Assembly (NCBI RefSeq): GCF_000511385.1 | Contig: NC_023137.1 | Location: 2,859,001-2,923,000, forward strand | Length of the DNA: 64,000 nt | Direction: 5' to 3' | Origin: Phaeobacter gallaeciensis DSM 26640 | GTDB taxonomy: Bacteria; Pseudomonadota; Alphaproteobacteria; Rhodobacterales; Rhodobacteraceae | Shown: positions 973 to 33,035 of the stretch, piece after piece | How the letters are laid out: every line of letters starts with the position of its first letter | Numbering within the stretch: position 1 is the first letter of the stretch | Program-made: the position numbers and the translations under genes | Notes under the pieces: generated by a model | The model's input: only the letters and a program-made list of their open reading frames with translations | The model's database searches: none | Told to the model about the DNA's origin: nothing

Positions 973-2913
973 ATGGCTGAACACAACCTCAGACTGATCG
1001 AGGCCGCGCGCCCCCTGATCCGGCGAGAGCGCCAAACGTCGTTTGAACGGCGCCTGGTTGAGCATCACGCCGTCAGCAAAGACCACCTGATGCGGGCGCT
1101 GGTTCTGCGCCAGCATCAGCGTGTTCCGATTGATCACATCCTTGTTTCCGAAGGATGGGCCAGTCAGGAACAGGTTCTGGATGCGCTGTCGTCCGAGCAT
1201 GGTCTGCAACGGGTTGATCTGAGTGGTCACCGCCCCCAGGCGCGTCTGCTCGCGCGCAAACCCGCCCAGTTTTGGCTGCGTCGCTGTGCGCTGCCATATA
1301 TGCAACTGGGGCAGACACTTGTGGTGGCGATTGCGCATCCGGCCGGTCTGGCTGAACTACAGCGCGATCTTGCGGAGAGTTTTGGCGATATCCGACCGGT
1401 TATCGCCAACGAGGCCCAGATTACTGAACTTCTGACCGCTCATTTTCGCGACGATCTCGCCCGCCATGCCAGCGCCTGCGTGCCGCTGGCCTACAGTTGC
1501 CGCACCCTTGGCCAGCCGAACTGGCTCGGTCTGCCGCTCCTCATCGGGCTGGTGGCTCTCGCATTTGTCACCACCATGCCGAGGGTGGTTTTCACCCTGC
1601 TCTGCGGCCTCGCCCTTTTGACACTGCTGCTGTTTGTGCTGCTGAAATGTGCAGGGTTTTTGTCCCATCTTCAGGATCAACGCAGGCAGCGCCTGCATCA
1701 AAAGACCCGATCACAGCCCAAACCACCGCTCTGCTCCAATCAGGTATTGGGGGGAGCAGCAACACCGCAACGCCTGCCACGAATCTCCGTTCTGGTGCCC
1801 CTCTACAAGGAGGCGGAGATTGGCCGCGCGCTATTACGACGCCTGTGTAAACTCACCTACCCGCGCAGCCTGCTGGAGGTTCTACTCGTACTGGAAGAAG
1901 AGGACGAGGTGACCCGCAATGCCATCCGCTGCGCCGATCTGCCGGATTGGTTCCGGGTGATCGAGGTGCCCGCCCACGGCGGTCTCACCACCAAACCACG
2001 GGCCATGAACTACGCGCTAAACTATTGCCGCGGTGAGGTTATCGGTGTTTGGGACGCCGAGGACGCACCGAACCCTGATCAGTTGGAGCTGGTGGCGCGC
2101 GCTTTTGCCCAAGGGGACAATGATCTGGCCTGCCTGCAAGGCGCGCTGGACTACTACAATCCCGGTCAGAACTGGATATCGCGCTGTTTCACGCTTGAGT
2201 ACGCCAGCTGGTTCCGCATCGTACTGCCGGGCATTGCACGCCTCGGGCTGGTGGTCCCACTGGGCGGCACCACACTTTTCATTCGCCGCAACATACTTGA
2301 ACAACTGGGCGGCTGGGATGCCCATAACGTGACCGAGGATGCCGATCTAGGCGTCCGGCTCTGCCGCCTTGGCTACCGCACGGAGATGCTGCCCACCACC
2401 ACCTATGAGGAGGCAAACTGCCGCCCCTGGCCATGGGTCAAGCAACGGTCACGCTGGCTGAAGGGCTTCATGGTCACCTATCTGGTCCATATGCGCCGCC
2501 CCGCTGTCCTGGCGCGGCAACTGGGCTGGCGGCAATTTCTTGGCTTGCAGGCCTTCTTCCTCGGCACGGTCGGTCAGTTCCTGCTGGCCCCCTGCCTCTG
2601 GACCTTCTGGCTGATCACTCTGGGGTTCGACCACCCGAGTACGCCACTGCTGCCCGCCGGAGCGCCCTATCTGGCTGCTGCCATTCTGGTATTCTTCGAA
2701 TTGCTGGGCATCACGATCGGGATCACCGCCGCTTTCGCCAGCGGACGGCGCTGGCTGGCGCTTTGGACACCCAGCATGATCCTGTATTTCCCGATGGGTG
2801 TGATCGCCGTTTACAAGGCGCTTTATGAGCTGATCTTCAAACCGTTTTTCTGGGACAAGACCGCGCATGGGCAGTCACAGACATCCCGGAAAACACCGCT
2901 CCCCCGGACATAG
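973..2913 (+). CDS. Membrane glycosyltransferase family 2, XagB-like
   Basis: Probable processive inner-membrane glycosyltransferase for an exported polysaccharide. The 646-residue protein has three parts. Residues about 1-155 resemble the N-terminal domain of type II secretion/MshE ATPases (LVSEGWASQEQVLDALSSEHG), as in XagB-type enzymes. Two hydrophobic segments follow at about 175-225. A GT2 domain covers about 265-520 with VLVPLYKEAE, the D-x-D-like VWDAEDAP, GGTTLFIRR, the acceptor-site VTEDADLGVRL and the QRSRWLKG (QxxRW) motif. Further membrane helices close the protein. The Shine-Dalgarno sequence at this ATG is weak, but the N-terminal domain starts directly after it. No export or epimerase partner lies next to it, so the sugar product cannot be inferred. 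Confidence 0.85.
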   Translation: MAEHNLRLIEAARPLIRRERQTSFERRLVEHHAVSKDHLMRALVLRQHQRVPIDHILVSEGWASQEQVLDALSSEHGLQRVDLSGHRPQARLLARKPAQFWLRRCALPYMQLGQTLVVAIAHPAGLAELQRDLAESFGDIRPVIANEAQITELLTAHFRDDLARHASACVPLAYSCRTLGQPNWLGLPLLIGLVALAFVTTMPRVVFTLLCGLALLTLLLFVLLKCAGFLSHLQDQRRQRLHQKTRSQPKPPLCSNQVLGGAATPQRLPRISVLVPLYKEAEIGRALLRRLCKLTYPRSLLEVLLVLEEEDEVTRNAIRCADLPDWFRVIEVPAHGGLTTKPRAMNYALNYCRGEVIGVWDAEDAPNPDQLELVARAFAQGDNDLACLQGALDYYNPGQNWISRCFTLEYASWFRIVLPGIARLGLVVPLGGTTLFIRRNILEQLGGWDAHNVTEDADLGVRLCRLGYRTEMLPTTTYEEANCRPWPWVKQRSRWLKGFMVTYLVHMRRPAVLARQLGWRQFLGLQAFFLGTVGQFLLAPCLWTFWLITLGFDHPSTPLLPAGAPYLAAAILVFFELLGITIGITAAFASGRRWLALWTPSMILYFPMGVIAVYKALYELIFKPFFWDKTAHGQSQTSRKTPLPRT

Positions 2914-2932
2914 CGTGAGGGCAGCGGGCGCC

Positions 2933-3586
2933 CTACCCCTTGCTGCGATCGCCAGCGTCCTGTTTCAACCGGGTCATGAAGGCCACCGAAATATGATCCT
3001 TCAGCGCCCGACCCGCTGCCTGCTCGTCACGCTGCTCAATGGCGCTCACAATGCTCTTATGCTCTGCCTGGGCAATCCGGCCCCGCCCCTCCGCGGCCAG
3101 TGATGTGGTTGCCATCAGCGCCATGGTGCGATGCACCAGGTTCAGCTGCTGCACCAGATACCGATTGTGTGAGGCCAGATGGATTTGCTCATGAAAACGG
3201 CGGTTCGCCTTGGCCAGCTCCGTCGGATTGTCGACAAAGGCATCATCCGAGGCGACCATCTCCTGCAGCACCCGGATTTCTTCTTCGGTGGCATGCCGCG
3301 CCGCAAGGCTGGCGGCCAGCCCTTCCAGCTCGCGCCGCACCACATACAGCTCCGCCATCTGGTTGTGGTCCAGCGAGGCAACAATCAGCGACCGCCCGTC
3401 ACGTTCCAGCAAGGACTGCGTCTCAAGCCGCTGCAACGCCTCGCGGATCGGGGTGCGCGACACGCCGAACCGTTCCGCAAGGTCGCTTTCGACCAGACGG
3501 TCACCGGGGCGATAGACCCCGACATCAATGGCTTCAAGGATCAGCGCATAAGCGTCGGTCTGGCTGGTACTGCGAGGAAGGCTCAT
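2933..3586 (-). CDS. GntR-family regulator, FadR/FCD subfamily
   Basis: DNA-binding transcriptional regulator of 217 residues. The N-terminal winged helix-turn-helix is clear (YRPGDRLVESDLAERFGVSRTPIREALQRLE, residues about 20-55). The rest is an all-helical FCD effector domain with the usual scattered His/Asp residues (ELYVVRRELEGLAASLAARHA, HEQIHLASHNRYL) that often bind a metal and a carboxylate ligand. It converges on the glycosyltransferase and is divergent from the nucleotidase gene. Its target and ligand cannot be told from the context. Confidence 0.93.
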   Translation of the reverse strand: MSLPRSTSQTDAYALILEAIDVGVYRPGDRLVESDLAERFGVSRTPIREALQRLETQSLLERDGRSLIVASLDHNQMAELYVVRRELEGLAASLAARHATEEEIRVLQEMVASDDAFVDNPTELAKANRRFHEQIHLASHNRYLVQQLNLVHRTMALMATTSLAAEGRGRIAQAEHKSIVSAIEQRDEQAAGRALKDHISVAFMTRLKQDAGDRSKG

Positions 3587-3776
3587 GTCGATCCTTGGAT
3601 TGTTGCTCCCCGATGTCTACAGGCCTCGGAGCCGTGCAATCAACCCCGCCCCGGCCAAGCGGTTAAGATCGCGCGGTGTATTCCGGTCAGGGTTCGCGTT
3701 TCAGCCACATCTATTCCATCGACTATTCCACCGGCGATGCTTGCAATCGCATAGGTCGCGGCCTAGGTCCCTCGCC

Positions 3777-4418
3777 ATGGTATCGCAATCTTTCTCTCAC
3801 GTCCGCCACTGGGTGTTCGACCTCGACAACACCCTCTATCACCCGTCTGCCCGGCTGTTTGACCAGATTGAGGTCAAGATGACGGATTATGTCATGACTG
3901 CCCTTGGCGTTGACCAGCAAATGGCCAACAAGCTGCGCGACGACTATTGGCGCGAGCATGGCACCACCCTTGCGGGGCTGATGGCACATCATGATCTGGA
4001 TCCAGATCCGTTCCTGCTGGAGGTTCACGATATCAATTTCGATCAACTGGAGCCGGACACCCTGCTGGCTGAGCGGATCAGGAGCCTGCCCGGCAAACGG
4101 ATCATCTATACCAATGGCACCGCGCCTTATGCCGAACAGGTGCTGGCCGCGCGGGGACTTGAGGGCTGTTTTGACGAAATCTACGGCGTTGAACACGCCA
4201 ACTATCGCCCCAAGCCGGAGCGCCAGGCTTTTGACATCATCTTTGCCAAGGCCGACATCGACACAGCAAGGGCCGCGATGTTTGAGGATGATCCACGCAA
4301 TCTTCAGGCCCCACATGATCTGGGCATGCGGACAGTCCATGTCGCGCCCGAGGCAACACCCGGCGCGCATATCCACCATCATACCGATGATCTGACCGGG
4401 TTTCTCGGCCTGCTCTGA
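3777..4418 (+). CDS. Pyrimidine 5'-nucleotidase, HAD superfamily
   Basis: Soluble HAD phosphatase of the SDT1/pyrimidine 5'-nucleotidase type, expected to dephosphorylate nucleoside monophosphates. Starting at ATG 3777 gives 213 residues, the usual family length; the frame is open further upstream, but that extension is low-complexity and has no homology-like features. HAD motif I is FDLDNTLYHP (catalytic Asp pair), motif II is in IIYTNGTAPYAEQV, the lysine is in YRPKPERQAFD, and motif IV is FEDDPRNL. The gene stands alone, divergent from the GntR regulator. Confidence 0.9.
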   Translation: MVSQSFSHVRHWVFDLDNTLYHPSARLFDQIEVKMTDYVMTALGVDQQMANKLRDDYWREHGTTLAGLMAHHDLDPDPFLLEVHDINFDQLEPDTLLAERIRSLPGKRIIYTNGTAPYAEQVLAARGLEGCFDEIYGVEHANYRPKPERQAFDIIFAKADIDTARAAMFEDDPRNLQAPHDLGMRTVHVAPEATPGAHIHHHTDDLTGFLGLL

Positions 4419-4595
4419 GCACCGGTGCACCACACACAGCCCCGGCTGCGCATCCTGTCGCACCCCTGTGGCGCGCCGCCGCACCGCTCTTTTGCCGGGG
4501 CTGATAAGGTATATATGGCTGGCATCTTTGATGCGCGTCCGTGGCGCCCTGCTGCCACGATCCGCGCGGATTGCTCAGACCGAGGATGCCGCCCA

Positions 4596-4850
4596 ATGAA
4601 CGACATGACTTTTGACCACGCCCAGCAGCAAACGGCCCCAACGGTGGCCGCCCCCGCTACTCCATCCCCCGTGACGCCCTCTGACAGCCGCGATCAGGCC
4701 AATGCGACGAAGGCCCTGCTGGCCATTCTGCTCTATGTGCTGCTCTGGGGGCTGGCCGTCGCCATCTGGGGCCTGCCGGCGCTGTTCCTGCCTGCGGTCG
4801 CCAAAACAGCCATCATGTTCGTGATCCTGGTAAGCATCACCCGCGGCTGA
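4596..4850 (+). CDS. Small membrane protein of unknown function
   Basis: An 84-residue product if translation starts at ATG 4596, which has a GAGG about 10 bases upstream; the frame is open back to 4425, but that extension is Arg/Pro-rich and looks non-coding. The N-terminus is hydrophilic and Ala/Thr/Pro-rich. The C-terminal half is strongly hydrophobic (ATKALLAILLYVLLWGLAVAI, then ALFLPAVAKTAIMFVILVSI), predicting two membrane helices. I do not recognise a family. It lies just before the ubiH-like gene and may be co-transcribed with it. Confidence 0.6.
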   Translation: MNDMTFDHAQQQTAPTVAAPATPSPVTPSDSRDQANATKALLAILLYVLLWGLAVAIWGLPALFLPAVAKTAIMFVILVSITRG

Positions 4851-4857
4851 TCTGGGC

Positions 4858-4901
4858 AAACGCAGTCGACGGCGCCACCAAACGCAGTCGACGGCGCCAC
4901 C
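4858..4901. repeat. Exact 22-bp tandem duplication
   Basis: The 22 bases at 4858-4879 are repeated without mismatch at 4880-4901, followed by a few more matching A residues. The unit contains GTCGAC and GGCGCC, two six-base palindromes. It lies between the small membrane gene (stop 4850) and the Shine-Dalgarno of the monooxygenase gene, so it lengthens that leader by one unit. Confidence 0.95.
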
Positions 4902-4976
4902 AAAAAGGACAGTATGTCGCTTGTCATTCCGATCATCACCGGCCTATCTCAGAAGCAGAGACGAAAGGCAGGTTCT

Positions 4977-6173
4977 ATGGCTGACAGTTGCGACATTCTG
5001 ATTTCCGGTGGTGGCATCGCAGGGTTGACCGCCGCGGCGACACTGGGGGCTGCCGGGTTCACGGTGATCTGCGTCGACCCGACGCCGCCCGTGACGCTGC
5101 GCGACGATGCCGGGGCCGATCTGCGCACCACCGCAATCCTGCAACCGGCCAAGGCACTGCTGCAAGAGGCGGGGATCTGGGCGCGGCTCGACAGCCACGC
5201 CGCGCCGCTAGAGATTATGCGGATCATTGATGCAGGCGGCGCTGAGCCCGTGGCCCGCGTCACCAAGGATTTCAAATCTGCCGACATCTCCGATCAACCG
5301 TTTGGCTGGAACCTGCCCAATTGGCTGCTGCGCCGCGAACTTCTGGCGCGCCTTGACGACCTCGATACCGTGGATTTCCGCCCCGGTCTTGGTACCACTA
5401 AGCTGTTCACACGCACAAACGCCGCACAGGTCACCCTGAGTGACGGCAGCAGCGTCACCGCCCGCCTGGTGCTGGCCTGTGATGGGCGCGACAGCCCGAT
5501 GCGACGCGCGGCCGGGATCCCTGTACGAACAACCCGTTACGGGCAGAAAGCGCTGGCGTTTGCCGTCACACACGCGCAGCCGCATCAAAACGTCTCGACC
5601 GAGATCCACCGCTCCGGCGGGCCGTTCACACTGGTGCCGCTGCCGGATCACAACGGCCAGCCTTCGTCCGCCATTGTCTGGATGGAACATGGCCCGCGAG
5701 CGCAGGCGCTGCAGCGCATGGATCAGGCAGCTTTCGAGGCTGAAATGAACCGGCGCAGCTGTGGCGTTCTGGGGCAGTTGCGGTTGGCCTCCCGCCGCAG
5801 CATCTGGCCCATCATCAGCCAATCCGCCGCCCGCATGAATGGCGAACGCCTGGCCCTGATGGCAGAGGCCGCCCATGTCGTGCCGCCCATCGGGGCCCAG
5901 GGTCTGAACATGTCGCTGGGCGATCTGCGCGTACTGCTGGATTTGGCACAGGCCCGTCCCGAAGGGCTGGGTGATACGGCGATGCTCGACAGCTACCACA
6001 AAGCCCGCCATAGCGATATTCTGATGCGGGTAAAAGGAATCGACCTTTTGAACCGGACCTCCATGCTCAGCCCTCGTCCGCTGCGCGATCTGCGTGCCTT
6101 TGGCCTCAACGCGCTCTACTCCATGGCGCCGGTACGCAAGACGCTGATGCAGATGGGGCTGGGTGTCAAATAG
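4977..6173 (+). CDS. UbiH/UbiF/Coq6-family FAD-dependent hydroxylase
   Basis: Flavin monooxygenase probably hydroxylating the ubiquinone ring precursor. From ATG 4977 the protein has 398 residues and begins MADSCDILISGGGIAGLTAA, the dinucleotide-binding GxGxxG fold at the very N-terminus as is normal for the family. The ATG at 4914 is in frame but would add 21 unusual residues; the 4977 start is also preceded by AAAGGCAGG. Other signatures are ACDGRDSPMRRAAGI (FAD/NADPH motif) and AAHVVPPIGAQGLNMSLGDL (second FAD motif typical of UbiH). Its stop is two bases before the next ATG, suggesting translational coupling. No other ubi gene is visible here. Confidence 0.9.
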   Translation: MADSCDILISGGGIAGLTAAATLGAAGFTVICVDPTPPVTLRDDAGADLRTTAILQPAKALLQEAGIWARLDSHAAPLEIMRIIDAGGAEPVARVTKDFKSADISDQPFGWNLPNWLLRRELLARLDDLDTVDFRPGLGTTKLFTRTNAAQVTLSDGSSVTARLVLACDGRDSPMRRAAGIPVRTTRYGQKALAFAVTHAQPHQNVSTEIHRSGGPFTLVPLPDHNGQPSSAIVWMEHGPRAQALQRMDQAAFEAEMNRRSCGVLGQLRLASRRSIWPIISQSAARMNGERLALMAEAAHVVPPIGAQGLNMSLGDLRVLLDLAQARPEGLGDTAMLDSYHKARHSDILMRVKGIDLLNRTSMLSPRPLRDLRAFGLNALYSMAPVRKTLMQMGLGVK

Positions 6174-20224: not shown

Positions 20225-21433
20225 TCAGAAATTCACAATCGCCTGGATGACGATGGCATTGGCGATATCAACAAAGAAGGCGGATACAAGGGGGAGCACA
20301 ACAAAAGCAATAGGCGACGGCCCATAGCGCTTGGTCACGGCGGTCATATTTGCAATGGCCGTCGGAGTTGCACCCAGCGCAAAACCGCCAAAGCCGGCGG
20401 CAAGCACAGCGGCGCGATAGCCCCGCCCCAAGAGCGGAACCAGCACAAACAGTACAAAAGCCACGGTAAAAGCCGTCTGCGCCAGCATGATCACTGCAAT
20501 CGCCAGCCCAAGACCGGTGATGGTCCAGAGTTGCAGGCTCATCAGTGACATCGCGAGGAAGGCTCCCAGCGAAAATTCCGACACCAGCGCCAGCGCCGGT
20601 GTCCGCGCCACGGCCGGGGCCTTGGGCAGAAGTGCCATGCGCAGATTGGCCAGCAGGATACCGGCAATCAGGCAGGGGACGAACAGCGGCAGCTTCACCC
20701 CCGCAGGATCCAGCCCCAAGGAGGTGACATAGCCGATAATAATCGCGAGGTTGAGATGCAGCATGACCCGCATCAGCCCCAGATGATCAATCGTGGAGGC
20801 ATCTTCGTCATTCTGCGCCAGACCAACCGTCGGCTGCTCATCCGGGCGCGCCGGGGTCAACCCATGACGATTGATCAGGAACCGCGCAATGGGTCCACCA
20901 ACCAGCGCCGCCAACACCAAGCCCAGCGTGGCCACGGCAACCCCCAGCTCTGCGGCGCCGGCCATCCCGGTCTGTGCAGCCACCTCGGGCGACCAGGCAA
21001 TCGCGGTGCCATGCCCGCCGATCAGCGCCGCAGAGCCGAACAGCACCGACACCTGCAACGGATAGCCAAACAGCAGCGCCCCCGCCGCGCCAATCGCATT
21101 CTGGGCCAGAATGGCCAGCAAGGTCAGGATCAGCAACAGCAGCAGTGGCCGCCCGCCTGCCACCAGATCCGCGAGCCGCGCGTTCAAACCGATACCAGCA
21201 AAAAACAGAACCAGCAGATAGTCCCGCGCCGCCATCTCAAAGGTGATCGCCCATCCGCTCACGCTGTAGACGATCATGATCACCACAGCCGCAAGCAACC
21301 CACCACTGACCGGCTCCGGGATATTGAACCGCTGCAACAGCTCTACCCGCGAATTGAGCCGCGCGCCCAGCAAATAGACCGCAAACCCCAGCGTCAGGGA
21401 GATGAAGTCGGGTATATTGATCTGCGCATCCAT
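20225..21433 (-). CDS. gltS: Sodium/glutamate symporter
   Basis: Inner-membrane Na+-coupled glutamate carrier (ESS family), 402 residues, ten or more helices. Two inverted repeats with Gly-rich re-entrant loops are visible: GSAALIGGHGTAIAWSPEVAA and AGFGGFALGATPTAIANMTAV, both characteristic of GltS. It sits between the DUF6446-like gene and glyS, only 9 bp before glyS, so glyS translation probably depends on the same transcript. This placement inside the glyQ-glyS operon is unusual. Confidence 0.93.
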   Translation of the reverse strand: MDAQINIPDFISLTLGFAVYLLGARLNSRVELLQRFNIPEPVSGGLLAAVVIMIVYSVSGWAITFEMAARDYLLVLFFAGIGLNARLADLVAGGRPLLLLLILTLLAILAQNAIGAAGALLFGYPLQVSVLFGSAALIGGHGTAIAWSPEVAAQTGMAGAAELGVAVATLGLVLAALVGGPIARFLINRHGLTPARPDEQPTVGLAQNDEDASTIDHLGLMRVMLHLNLAIIIGYVTSLGLDPAGVKLPLFVPCLIAGILLANLRMALLPKAPAVARTPALALVSEFSLGAFLAMSLMSLQLWTITGLGLAIAVIMLAQTAFTVAFVLFVLVPLLGRGYRAAVLAAGFGGFALGATPTAIANMTAVTKRYGPSPIAFVVLPLVSAFFVDIANAIVIQAIVNF

Positions 21434-29526: not shown

Positions 29527-31167
29527 TCAGTGGCCGCCCAGGATCCCTGTCTTGACCGAGTAATCCACCGCAATCTGGTAGTCCGGATCATCATCGCTAT
29601 CGACCATCAGATGCCCCGCCTTGGTCAACAACTGATGGCAATCGCGGCTCAGGTGGCGCAGCACGACGGCCTTGCCCTCGGCTTCATATTTACCGGCCAG
29701 CACCTCAATCGCCTGCAGGGCGGATTGGTCCACAACCCGGCTGCGGGCAAAATCCACGATCACATGATCCGGGTCATTCGCCACGTCGAACAACTCGATG
29801 AACCCATCGGTGGAGCCAAAGAACAGCGGCCCTTCGATCTCGTAAACCTTGGCGCCCTTGTCGCTTTCGGACTCGCGGGTATAGGCGTGAATGCGGCGCG
29901 CATTGTTCCAGGCATAGGCCAGCGCCGAGACGATCACACCGACAACCACCGCAATCGCAAGGTCGGTCATCACTGTCACCACAGTCACCAGAACGATGAC
30001 AAAGGCATCCATCAGCGGCACTTTGGTCATCACCTTGAAGCTGTTCCAAGCAAAGGTGCCAATCACCACCATGAACATCACGCCCACCAGTGCGGCCAGC
30101 GGGATCTGCTCGATCAGCGGCGAGGCCACAACGATAAAGGCCAGCAGGAACAGCGCCGCAGCAATGCCTGCAATCCGTGTCCGGCCGCCGGACTTCACGT
30201 TGATCATCGACTGGCCGATCATCGCACAGCCGCCCATGCCGCCAAAGAAGCCTGTGACCACATTGGACGCGCCCTGCGCAATGCACTCCTGGCTTGCCCC
30301 GCCGCGCTTGCCGGTGATCTCGCCCACCAGGTTCAGCGTCAGCAAGCTCTCGATCAGGCCAATCGCCGCCAGAATGACCGCATAGGGCAGGATGATCCAC
30401 AGCGTCTCAAGCGTGAACGGCGCAAGGGCGGTGCCATAAAGCCCTTCGCCCGTGCCAAACGGATTGTGGAACGCAGGCAGCCCGCCCTTGATCGAGGCCA
30501 TATCGCCAACGGTCGGCACGTCGATATTCAGCGCAATCACCAGAACCGCCACGATCCCAATCCCCGCCAGCGGCGCCGGGATGATGCTGGTGATCTTGGG
30601 CATGCCCCAGATAATCACCATGGTCAGCGCCACCAGCCCCAGCATCATCATCAGCTGCGGCCCTGCCAGCCAGGCCTCGGTATTGCCGGGCTGTTTGAAC
30701 TGCGTCAGCTGCGCCAGGAAGATCACAATCGCCAGCCCGTTCACAAAGCCCAGCATCACCGGATGTGGCACCAGCCGGATGAACTTGCCCCAATGCATGA
30801 CACCCGCGATAATCTGCAGGATCCCCATCAGCACCACGGTGGCAAAGAGGTACTCAACCCCGTGCTGCGCGACCAAAGCCACCATGACCACCGCCAAGGC
30901 GCCGGTCGCGCCGGAGATCATGCCGGGACGGCCGCCGAATACGGCGGTGATCAGCCCCACCATGAAGGCCGCATAAAGCCCCACCAGCGGATGCACACCC
31001 GCGACAAAGGCAAAGGCCACCGCCTCAGGCACCAGCGCCAGCGCCACAGTCAGGCCCGACAACAGTTCGGTACGCACGCGGGAAACGGTAAAGCCCTCAT
31101 CCTGCATGATGGAAAGATTGGGCGGTGAAATCTGCTTGGCGAGCGTCGCCATAATGCCGCGTGTCAT
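29527..31167 (-). CDS. SulP-family anion transporter with STAS domain
   Basis: 546 residues. The SLC26/SulP membrane part (residues about 25-400) shows the sulfate-transporter opening ELLSGLTVALALVPEAVAFAFVAGVHPLVGLYAAFMVGLI, a GGRPGMISGATGA loop and FFGGMGGCAMIGQSMINVKSGGRTR. A C-terminal STAS domain (about 440-540) has VIVDFARSRVVDQSALQAIEVL. Candidate substrates are sulfate, bicarbonate or another anion; no carbonic anhydrase or sulfur gene adjoins. Either of two ATGs (31167 or 31152) may be used. Confidence 0.92.
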   Translation of the reverse strand: MTRGIMATLAKQISPPNLSIMQDEGFTVSRVRTELLSGLTVALALVPEAVAFAFVAGVHPLVGLYAAFMVGLITAVFGGRPGMISGATGALAVVMVALVAQHGVEYLFATVVLMGILQIIAGVMHWGKFIRLVPHPVMLGFVNGLAIVIFLAQLTQFKQPGNTEAWLAGPQLMMMLGLVALTMVIIWGMPKITSIIPAPLAGIGIVAVLVIALNIDVPTVGDMASIKGGLPAFHNPFGTGEGLYGTALAPFTLETLWIILPYAVILAAIGLIESLLTLNLVGEITGKRGGASQECIAQGASNVVTGFFGGMGGCAMIGQSMINVKSGGRTRIAGIAAALFLLAFIVVASPLIEQIPLAALVGVMFMVVIGTFAWNSFKVMTKVPLMDAFVIVLVTVVTVMTDLAIAVVVGVIVSALAYAWNNARRIHAYTRESESDKGAKVYEIEGPLFFGSTDGFIELFDVANDPDHVIVDFARSRVVDQSALQAIEVLAGKYEAEGKAVVLRHLSRDCHQLLTKAGHLMVDSDDDPDYQIAVDYSVKTGILGGH

Positions 31168-31453
31168 GGGGTCACCTGTGATCGGGAAAGCAATTGTTAG
31201 CGCCGCCCCTAGCGGAATTCCGCCATTGGGGCAAGGGCGCGCCCCTTTGCGCCGCTTTCCAATGAGGTTCAGACGCTGATTGGGTCAGCCCTCCTGCCCA
31301 ATTGTTTCGCACGCGAAACATTGCGGCAGTGCTGCTGACATTAAACTTAAGCGTTTAGCAACACTTAGCCACTCGCCCCGCCTTGAAATGCCCGCCGATC
31401 CAGTGAACTGTTCTGACCATTGGGATTAGGCCATTGGGGTTCGGGGGGTTGTG
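31168..31453. other. Intergenic region with operator-like palindrome
   Basis: 286 bp between the divergent SulP and beta-helix genes. It contains the 18-bp palindrome listed separately and an AT-rich patch (31338-31365). No coding frame with convincing features was seen. Confidence 0.5.
31303..31320. promoter_or_regulatory. 18-bp palindrome TGTTTCGCACGCGAAACA
   Basis: Arms TGTTTCG and CGAAACA are exact reverse complements around CACG. The outer six bases on each side equal those of the parS consensus (TGTTTC...GAAACA), but the centre is six bases rather than four. Its position between two divergent genes suits an operator for either. Confidence 0.5.
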
Positions 31454-32989
31454 ATGCAGCGGTTTAAAAGCTGGGAAGATATTGTAAAGACCATCGAAGG
31501 TGGGCCAACAGAGGCGGAGTGGAAGCTGAAGGCAGCTGTGGAGGCAGGAAAACCCTGCTGCTGCGGCCCCGATGGTATAACACCACCAGAGCCAGAGAAT
31601 TGGTCGCGCCTTCCCTCTGACCGCCATATCCGAGCCGATGTGCTGCGTTTCTTGGTGCTAGATAGGAAACAACAACATATCACGGAAGTCGGAATTCAGC
31701 TAACTGGCGCCTACGTTAGCGGAGTAGTGACGCTATTTGATTGCAAGATACCGCACAATTTTATGCTTTCAGCATGCTGTTTCGAGTTCCCGATCGTGGC
31801 AGCACGAAGCAGCTGGGGTGCAGATTTTCGACTAAATTACTGTCGCATACCATCGTTAGCGGCGTCATTATCGGAGTTCAAAGGCCAAGTTTCCTTCGAC
31901 AACGCTCACATTGGCTTTGGTCAAGGTTTCGCACTGGACTTAAGCGGTTCTAAGGTCGGCAACACTGTATTTCTCAAAAATACGAGACTCTTGCAAAGCG
32001 CCATACTCAACAAAATGCAGATTTCAGGGATGTTAATATGCACAGGAACACAGTTTCTGGGAAGCTCTCCGTTTGCATTGACCTTACAAAACACAACAAT
32101 CAACACCGCATTCATATTCAATGGCGGTGCAAGATCTAGTGGCCTCTTACATCTTCCATCTGCACACCTAGGTGATCTATCAGACGATGTCAGTTGTTGG
32201 CCTTCTAACGGCGGAATTATTTTGGACGGCTGCACATATGATCGCATCATTGGGCAAAATTGCGCTACTAACGCGTCTACTCGACTTCAGTGGTTGGCCA
32301 AAGGCGAGACTGCAAAACATCCCTTCTTCCCCCAACCCTACAAACAACTCGCCAAGGTTCTGCACGACATGGGGCATGAAGCGGATGCGCGGGAGGTGTT
32401 CTATGTTCTCGAAAAGAAACTCGGGAAAGAGCGGCGCAGAGCGTTGCGAAAAGAGATCGAAACGCTGCGCGACACATCCCCCTCCCTTGGCCGGCGCATT
32501 GCAAAACACATGCTGCTCGGCGCGGATCATGCCATCGACTGGCTACAACGCGTAACTGTCGGATACGGGCGCAAACCCTTTCGCAGTATCGGCGTGCTTG
32601 CAGGCTTGATCCTAACATTCTGGATGCTCACCGTCGCTGCATGGCACACGGGTGGCTTTGCACCTAATTCCAGCATTGTTCTGACCTCCTCCGACTGGGC
32701 GACCTATGACACGCGGAGCACACGGCCCGCGCCACGAAACCCGGCGGACCATTGGAGCGAGACAACCATACCCGGCCGCGACTGGGAAAGCTTCTCTGCC
32801 ATCGCCTATGCCGCTGACGTCGTGGTTCCGATCGTTGACCTAGGCCAGACAGACGCCTGGGCGCCCTCCACCACGCGGGGACCTGCCGGCGTGATCCTGT
32901 GGTGGGCGCGCTGGGTCTTCACGCTCTTTGGCTGGATCGTTACCGCCCTTGGCGCGGCGGCTTTGACCGGGATCATCCGGCGCGAATAA
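31454..32989 (+). CDS. Beta-helix membrane protein of unknown function, composite composition
   Basis: 511 residues from ATG 31454 (a G-run lies five bases upstream). Order: N-terminal helical part with a CCC cluster (residues about 34-36); IRADVLRFLVLDRKQ; about 200 residues of irregular pentapeptide/beta-helix-like rungs (IQLTGAYVSGVVTLFDCKI, SFDNAHIG, LDLSGSKVGNTVFLKNTRL); a helical PYKQLAKVLHDMGHEADAREVFYVLEKKL block; a first membrane helix (GVLAGLILTFWMLTVAAW); a loop with DVVVPIVDLGQTDAWAPS; and a last helix ending ALTGIIRRE. This architecture occurs in uncharacterised pentapeptide-type membrane proteins of other bacteria. By hand count, GC is about 44% at 31861-32100 but about 66% at 32761-32880, suggesting a transferred or recombined 5' part. 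Confidence 0.8.
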   Translation: MQRFKSWEDIVKTIEGGPTEAEWKLKAAVEAGKPCCCGPDGITPPEPENWSRLPSDRHIRADVLRFLVLDRKQQHITEVGIQLTGAYVSGVVTLFDCKIPHNFMLSACCFEFPIVAARSSWGADFRLNYCRIPSLAASLSEFKGQVSFDNAHIGFGQGFALDLSGSKVGNTVFLKNTRLLQSAILNKMQISGMLICTGTQFLGSSPFALTLQNTTINTAFIFNGGARSSGLLHLPSAHLGDLSDDVSCWPSNGGIILDGCTYDRIIGQNCATNASTRLQWLAKGETAKHPFFPQPYKQLAKVLHDMGHEADAREVFYVLEKKLGKERRRALRKEIETLRDTSPSLGRRIAKHMLLGADHAIDWLQRVTVGYGRKPFRSIGVLAGLILTFWMLTVAAWHTGGFAPNSSIVLTSSDWATYDTRSTRPAPRNPADHWSETTIPGRDWESFSAIAYAADVVVPIVDLGQTDAWAPSTTRGPAGVILWWARWVFTLFGWIVTALGAAALTGIIRRE

Positions 32990-33035
32990 TCGCCGCCTGT
33001 CATCTTTCCCAAAATACTCTCGCCGAAGGCCTTGA

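Follow-up and report, generated by a model that had tools for sequence, protein, structure and literature searches.

The window analysed here is a stretch of 64,000 nucleotides from the genome of Phaeobacter gallaeciensis DSM 26640 (contig NC_023137.1, positions 2,859,001 to 2,923,000), in which a gene for a mosaic membrane protein is located on the forward strand (31454..32989). Comparison of its relatives firmly identifies a mosaic, hypervariable locus. Two blocks of the protein, a beta-helix and a block formed by a stalk, the first transmembrane segment (TM1) and an outer loop, are exchanged independently around conserved joints. The locus is an old chromosomal address at which many alleles occur, one to a genome in Phaeobacter.

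The start codon is either GTG at 31451 or ATG at 31454; counted from the ATG, the gene encodes 511 amino acids (aa) plus a stop, and it is present as a single copy in its own genome. The window protein (P0001) gave no match in Pfam or NCBIfam at E-values up to 1. The closest database protein is P0002, which is labelled Phaeobacter piscinae and is 97% identical.

Block exchange between alleles

Five parts of the protein were distinguished, all on the forward strand. A moderately conserved N-terminal segment (residues 1-80; 31454..31693) is followed by the beta-helix of low guanine-cytosine (GC) content, the first swapped block (residues about 81-270; 31694..32263), and by a conserved joint, PQPYKQLAKVLHDMGHEADAR (32324..32388). 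The second swapped block (residues about 326-441; 32429..32776) comprises the helical stalk, TM1 (376-399) and the outer loop. The conserved base (residues 442-511; 32777..32986) contains a short pore-helix-like segment (449-457), the PIVDLGQTDAWAPST loop and TM2 (477-505).

A first-pass annotation of this DNA had suggested swapping of a variable beta-helix onto a membrane base that is itself conserved, and the alleles found at the same address support this. Between the window and genome G004 of the same genus, two flanking proteins share 96% mean identity and residues 442-511 share 83%, while identity falls to 27% over residues 121-180 and to 14% over residues 326-376. Conservation of the base was confirmed for residues 442-511; the membrane half as a whole, however, is composite, since it also includes the second swapped block (residues about 326-441). 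Uniform divergence in relatives, named in that annotation as the outcome that would speak against it, was looked for and not seen. At the DNA level, blastn across the address gave about 80-90% identity between congeners in the flanks. Matches inside the gene, where there were any, fell at the 5' end, at 32324-32388 and at the 3' end from 32735-32774 onward. The segment 32324-32388 is conserved in four of six congeners and forms an isolated island in three of them, and in G006 the match is unbroken from 32324 on.

The same pattern was obtained from database relatives. Residues 121-180 show 16-43% identity to every one of the 60 relatives listed besides P0002; in the same relatives, residues 341-400 span 21-93% and residues 461-511 mostly 66-96%. 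P0122 (P. gallaeciensis), P0011 (Phaeobacter sp. JH18-32) and P0082 (P. italicus) have a common beta-helix (73-92% over residues 121-243), but the stalk of P0122 is unlike those of the other two (21-27%), which also differ from each other in the stalk (33%). Conversely, P0052 (labelled P. piscinae) and P0091 (P. italicus) have stalk and TM1 in common (92-96%) and unlike beta-helices (17-23%); the P0011/P0082 and P0052/P0091 comparisons come from 19 chosen proteins. Clustering at 70% identity of 151 of the 158 proteins, leaving aside seven that lack one module, yielded 95 beta-helix clusters and 83 membrane clusters. More than one membrane type occurred in 11 of the 20 multi-member beta-helix clusters, and more than one beta-helix type in 11 of the 17 multi-member membrane clusters. 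Among 11,325 pairs, 35 combined the same beta-helix with an unlike membrane block, 86 showed the reverse and in 85 both were the same. Four versions each, some of them partial, were found among proteins labelled P. piscinae, P. italicus, T. scottomollicae and E. ulvae; these labels are those of the source databases, and the address and one-copy status were seen for a minority of these proteins, so the versions may include paralogues.

Base composition also varies along the gene. In 200-bp windows, GC content has its minimum of 43.5% at 31900-32199, lies between 43.5 and 50% across 31600-32300 and reaches up to 67% at 32700-32999, with mostly 58-67% in the sequence on either side, in agreement with the GC-poor 5' half, GC-rich 3' end and GC-rich neighbourhood described earlier. 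The break had been placed roughly at the boundary between the beta-helix and the membrane part that starts with PYKQLAKVL. The PQPYKQLAKVL boundary is real, as the blastn island at 32324-32388 indicates, but GC climbs gradually from about 32200 to about 32700 with no single sharp step. Among 53 non-overlapping open reading frames (ORFs) of 120 aa or more, a mechanical selection from the window that surely includes some non-genes, the mosaic gene has the lowest GC (54%; runner-up 57%), the second-lowest GC at third codon positions (GC3, 58%) and the lowest identity to both G004 and G005 (46% each); the remaining ORFs are 68-100% identical in G004 and 48-98% in G005. A 402-aa ORF at 20225-21433 on the reverse strand is 88% identical in G005 and has no match in the G004 stretch compared. 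Within the window allele, GC3 is 39-51% for residues 61-290 versus 78% for residues 447-511. The same gradient, in a weaker form, is present in the full-length alleles of G004, G005 and G006. The low GC therefore belongs in part to the module itself and does not solely reflect one import. Chance is ruled out more by the modular divergence than by GC. Rather than a host gene with one foreign 5' half, this is a locus with many alleles.

Chromosomal address, selection and decay

The gene lies between a SulP-type sulfate permease gene (29527..31167, reverse strand) and a phosphorylase gene (MTAP-like, PF01048; 33173..34048, forward strand). The MTAP flank was found in all seven genomes of the genus sample, and in five of them (G000, G003, G004, G005 and G006) the mosaic gene, intact or split, lies between SulP and MTAP; the copy in G003, the same locus as L083 of Phaeobacter italicus CECT 7645, is broken by a frame change. 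G001 carries a deletion remnant, a 201-aa ORF fusing N- and C-terminal remains, and G002 has no mosaic gene at this address. The gene is also found there in many other genera of the Rhodobacteraceae. Of 112 loci found in the named genome collection 80 were kept, and in the sequence examined 35 of these had both SulP and MTAP beside them and 43 had SulP, MTAP or APRT.

Of 120 family genomes drawn, 61 had SulP and 107 had MTAP, and the two adjoined on one contig in 46 (places read by hand). The gap between them was shorter than 500 bp in 29 of these genomes and 740-950 bp in six; three (G000, G005 and G011) hold a mosaic-family gene and eight hold 1.5-2.7 kb of other sequence. No mosaic-family match was found in the ORFs of the 14 gaps formed by the last eight and the six of 740-950 bp. 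The address is thus old, yet across the family as a whole it mostly holds no such gene. Members of the mosaic-gene family, at whatever location, were found in 46 of 248 family genomes, with stop codons inside the match in three of the 46, and the membrane part as query detected members in 9 of 398 genomes of the phylum.

Some loci deviate from this arrangement. In L065, L066 and L070 the mosaic-family gene sits between MTAP and APRT and not between SulP and MTAP. L167 (G349:C3:494000-502000) carries two family members in tandem (1828-3555 and 3598-5523), the second with an additional insertion within the stalk block. At the SulP-MTAP site of another genus (L135, G058), an ORF at 1939-3657 resembles by eye an SMC/OLD-type ATPase. 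A linked partner gene was considered and rejected: extra genes at or near the address vary between genera and look ordinary from their translations.

For the analysis of same-address genes, 34 of 40 loci were used; L042, L050, L083, L101, L110 and L130 were excluded because they were short, empty or split. Identity of the beta-helix and stalk hardly follows that of the flanks (Spearman 0.06-0.12), and identity of the C-terminal block follows it more (0.36). In the 34 pairs with 90-99% flank identity, median identity rose from 38% in the stalk through 59-65% in the beta-helix to 83% in the C-terminal block. For the pair L072/L074, nonsynonymous divergence (dN) of the gene was 0.070, about twentyfold that of the flanks (0.003 and 0.004), at broadly similar synonymous divergence (dS). 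For L063/L069, the gene dS of 0.05 lies below the flank dS of 0.26-0.32, which points to recent allele transfer. Because dN/dS-type ratios are mostly below 1, positive selection is not claimed. One cluster of ten proteins is nearly invariant. Variation in three beta-helix clusters gave no signal of lag-5 (pentad) periodicity (shuffle p 0.83, 0.12 and 0.51), and therefore confinement of the variation to the surface is not claimed either.

The locus decays recurrently: the same-address copies L083, L101, L110 and L130 are each split into two ORFs, with breaks at different points. Phase variation was considered for these copies, but the breaks differ in place and no shared repeat was seen by eye, so that decay is the simpler explanation. 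Shuffled inner and middle parts together with a constant tail are a pattern expected of an arms-race gene.

Predicted structure and similarity to known systems

AlphaFold models contain a pentapeptide-type beta-helix, a stalk and a transmembrane-loop-transmembrane unit; the beta-helix is presumed to lie in the cytoplasm and the outer loop outside. The modelled beta-helix of the window protein has the quadrilateral fold of the pentapeptide-repeat family. PF13576 (pentapeptide) matches 47 of 69 relatives at E-values up to 0.1 and is not found in the window protein, which differs from pentapeptide-repeat proteins of this type, including the Qnr, MfpA, HetL and AlbG structures, by its membrane base and its hypervariability.

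A Foldseek search with the full model gave HalA (PDB 9nyi) as best match (E 3.3e-4), followed by Kir/Kv channels at weak E-values, and the membrane part aligns to HalA over 157 residues, stalk included. On these models the membrane base is predicted to resemble a channel unit. HalA is reportedly the effector of the Hailong anti-phage defence. One source calls it an ion channel that poly-dA blocks (PMC13275509), and according to two others the Hailong system senses anti-defence activity via single-stranded DNA (PMC12657218; PMC12657230); the text of PMC9122126 does not contain the word 'Hailong'. The predicted likeness to HalA is one of fold, for the full model and for the membrane part with its stalk, and the window protein differs in its long variable beta-helix and in module swapping. 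PDB sequence searches at E-values up to 1 (A1) or up to 10 (A2 and A3) did not list HalA, the presence of its chain in the copy searched being unchecked, and no sequence match of the membrane part was found in the PDB. In PADLOC-DB 2023, a library with no HalB-named family, P0001 had no match at E-values up to 1, and the 69 members matched three families only (best E 0.02-0.05).

In pore-loop cation channels such as Kir, KATP, Kv and KcsA, a TVGYG-type motif forms the selectivity filter, whereas the loop of the window protein reads PIVDLGQ. No Ion_trans family appeared in the Pfam matches of 69 or 14 members; a single MS_channel_1st_1 match (E 0.074) was obtained among the 14. HsdS, the specificity subunit of type I restriction, has two variable blocks between conserved joints, and the exchange of these blocks is the only resemblance, an evolutionary one: HsdS is an unrelated protein, the window protein is membrane-bound, and no restriction gene was found among the neighbours scanned. 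No paper on this locus, or on pentapeptide membrane proteins that are hypervariable, was seen among the literature matches listed, which for several searches were a small part of all matches.

Possible role in conflict

Our preferred but tentative reading is a HalA-like channel effector that works on its own, is gated by a beta-helix specific to each allele and plays a part in immunity or some other conflict. Two points favour a conflict role: it would be unusual for a housekeeping channel to swap blocks on a constant tail, and the nearest fold is that of an anti-phage effector. As the first-pass annotation suggested, the beta-helix may have a sensor or effector function. The transmembrane-pore loop-transmembrane unit would oligomerise into a channel, and the beta-helix with the stalk could act as an allele-specific sensor or lock. 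When a signal derived from an invader or rival is met, or a host ligand is lost, the channel would open and the cell would arrest. Arms-race selection would hold many alleles in circulation and permit recurrent loss.

Several observations weigh against this reading. All ten neighbours scanned with Pfam are ordinary and the window shows no defence context, and no relatives were found in phage records. Distant relatives on plasmids (20 records) were inspected at six places, three of them for context. On Acaryochloris plasmid pMB04 (L147, 1265-10894), a family member split over two ORFs neighbours a CU044_2847-family gene, a gene for a caspase-like/ATPase/pentapeptide protein (domains named by reading) and a caspase-family gene. 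We take CU044_2847 to correspond to a trypsin-co-occurring domain of conflict systems. Such systems are treated in PMC7159879. The Shinella and Streptomyces contexts contained no CU044_2847 or caspase-type genes.

The variable blocks could also serve kin discrimination or competition, as surfaces recognised or targeted by the toxins or contact signals that neighbouring cells produce, with rare alleles favoured. The many alleles under one species label, and the variability of segments presumed cytoplasmic as well as of those presumed outside, are consistent with this, but the ten scanned neighbours include no toxin, immunity or secretion gene and the beta-helix is predicted inside the cell, and we consider such a role unlikely. 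Somewhat less likely still is an ordinary channel, gated by a ligand or by stress, in which the regulatory parts diversify by niche and import, with no conflict involved. It would suit the channel-like predicted base, the mostly purifying codon ratios, the old address common to many genera and the window free of defence context; housekeeping channels, however, do not usually decay repeatedly or exchange blocks between strains that bear one species label.

Other readings have little probability. A membrane-tethered nucleic-acid mimic, acting on DNA-binding enzymes like Qnr or MfpA, would leave the conserved transmembrane-loop-transmembrane base and the swapped stalk unexplained and is improbable. 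A genuine Hailong HalA, kept repressed by DNA that a HalB makes, is slightly more doubtful again: HalA is the top structural match of the full model, but the Pfam scan of the ten neighbouring ORFs revealed no HalB-like nucleotidyltransferase and the PDB sequence search gave no match. The least credible reading is a one-off fusion, in which a host gene recently received one foreign 5' half by import. This would account for the GC step inside the gene, but full-length relatives at the same address in many genera carry many different 5' halves, and P0002 has the same combination.

If the gene is a stand-alone channel effector, HalA-like channel effectors would no longer be confined to a two-gene, DNA-gated system but would include a form that stands alone and is coded by its alleles. 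It is possible, though rather doubtful, that it represents a previously undescribed one-gene immune or recognition receptor, a membrane channel with sensor and stalk modules shuffled through populations. A single locus would then provide a large allele repertoire by a logic like that of restriction-specificity or histocompatibility loci, acting via membrane permeability. The alleles would form a natural library for finding what a pentapeptide beta-helix senses and how a membrane protein is gated. The old address, the independently reassorting modules common to several species and a base predicted to be closest in fold to an anti-phage channel effector may together indicate an unrecognised conflict gene in many Rhodobacteraceae.
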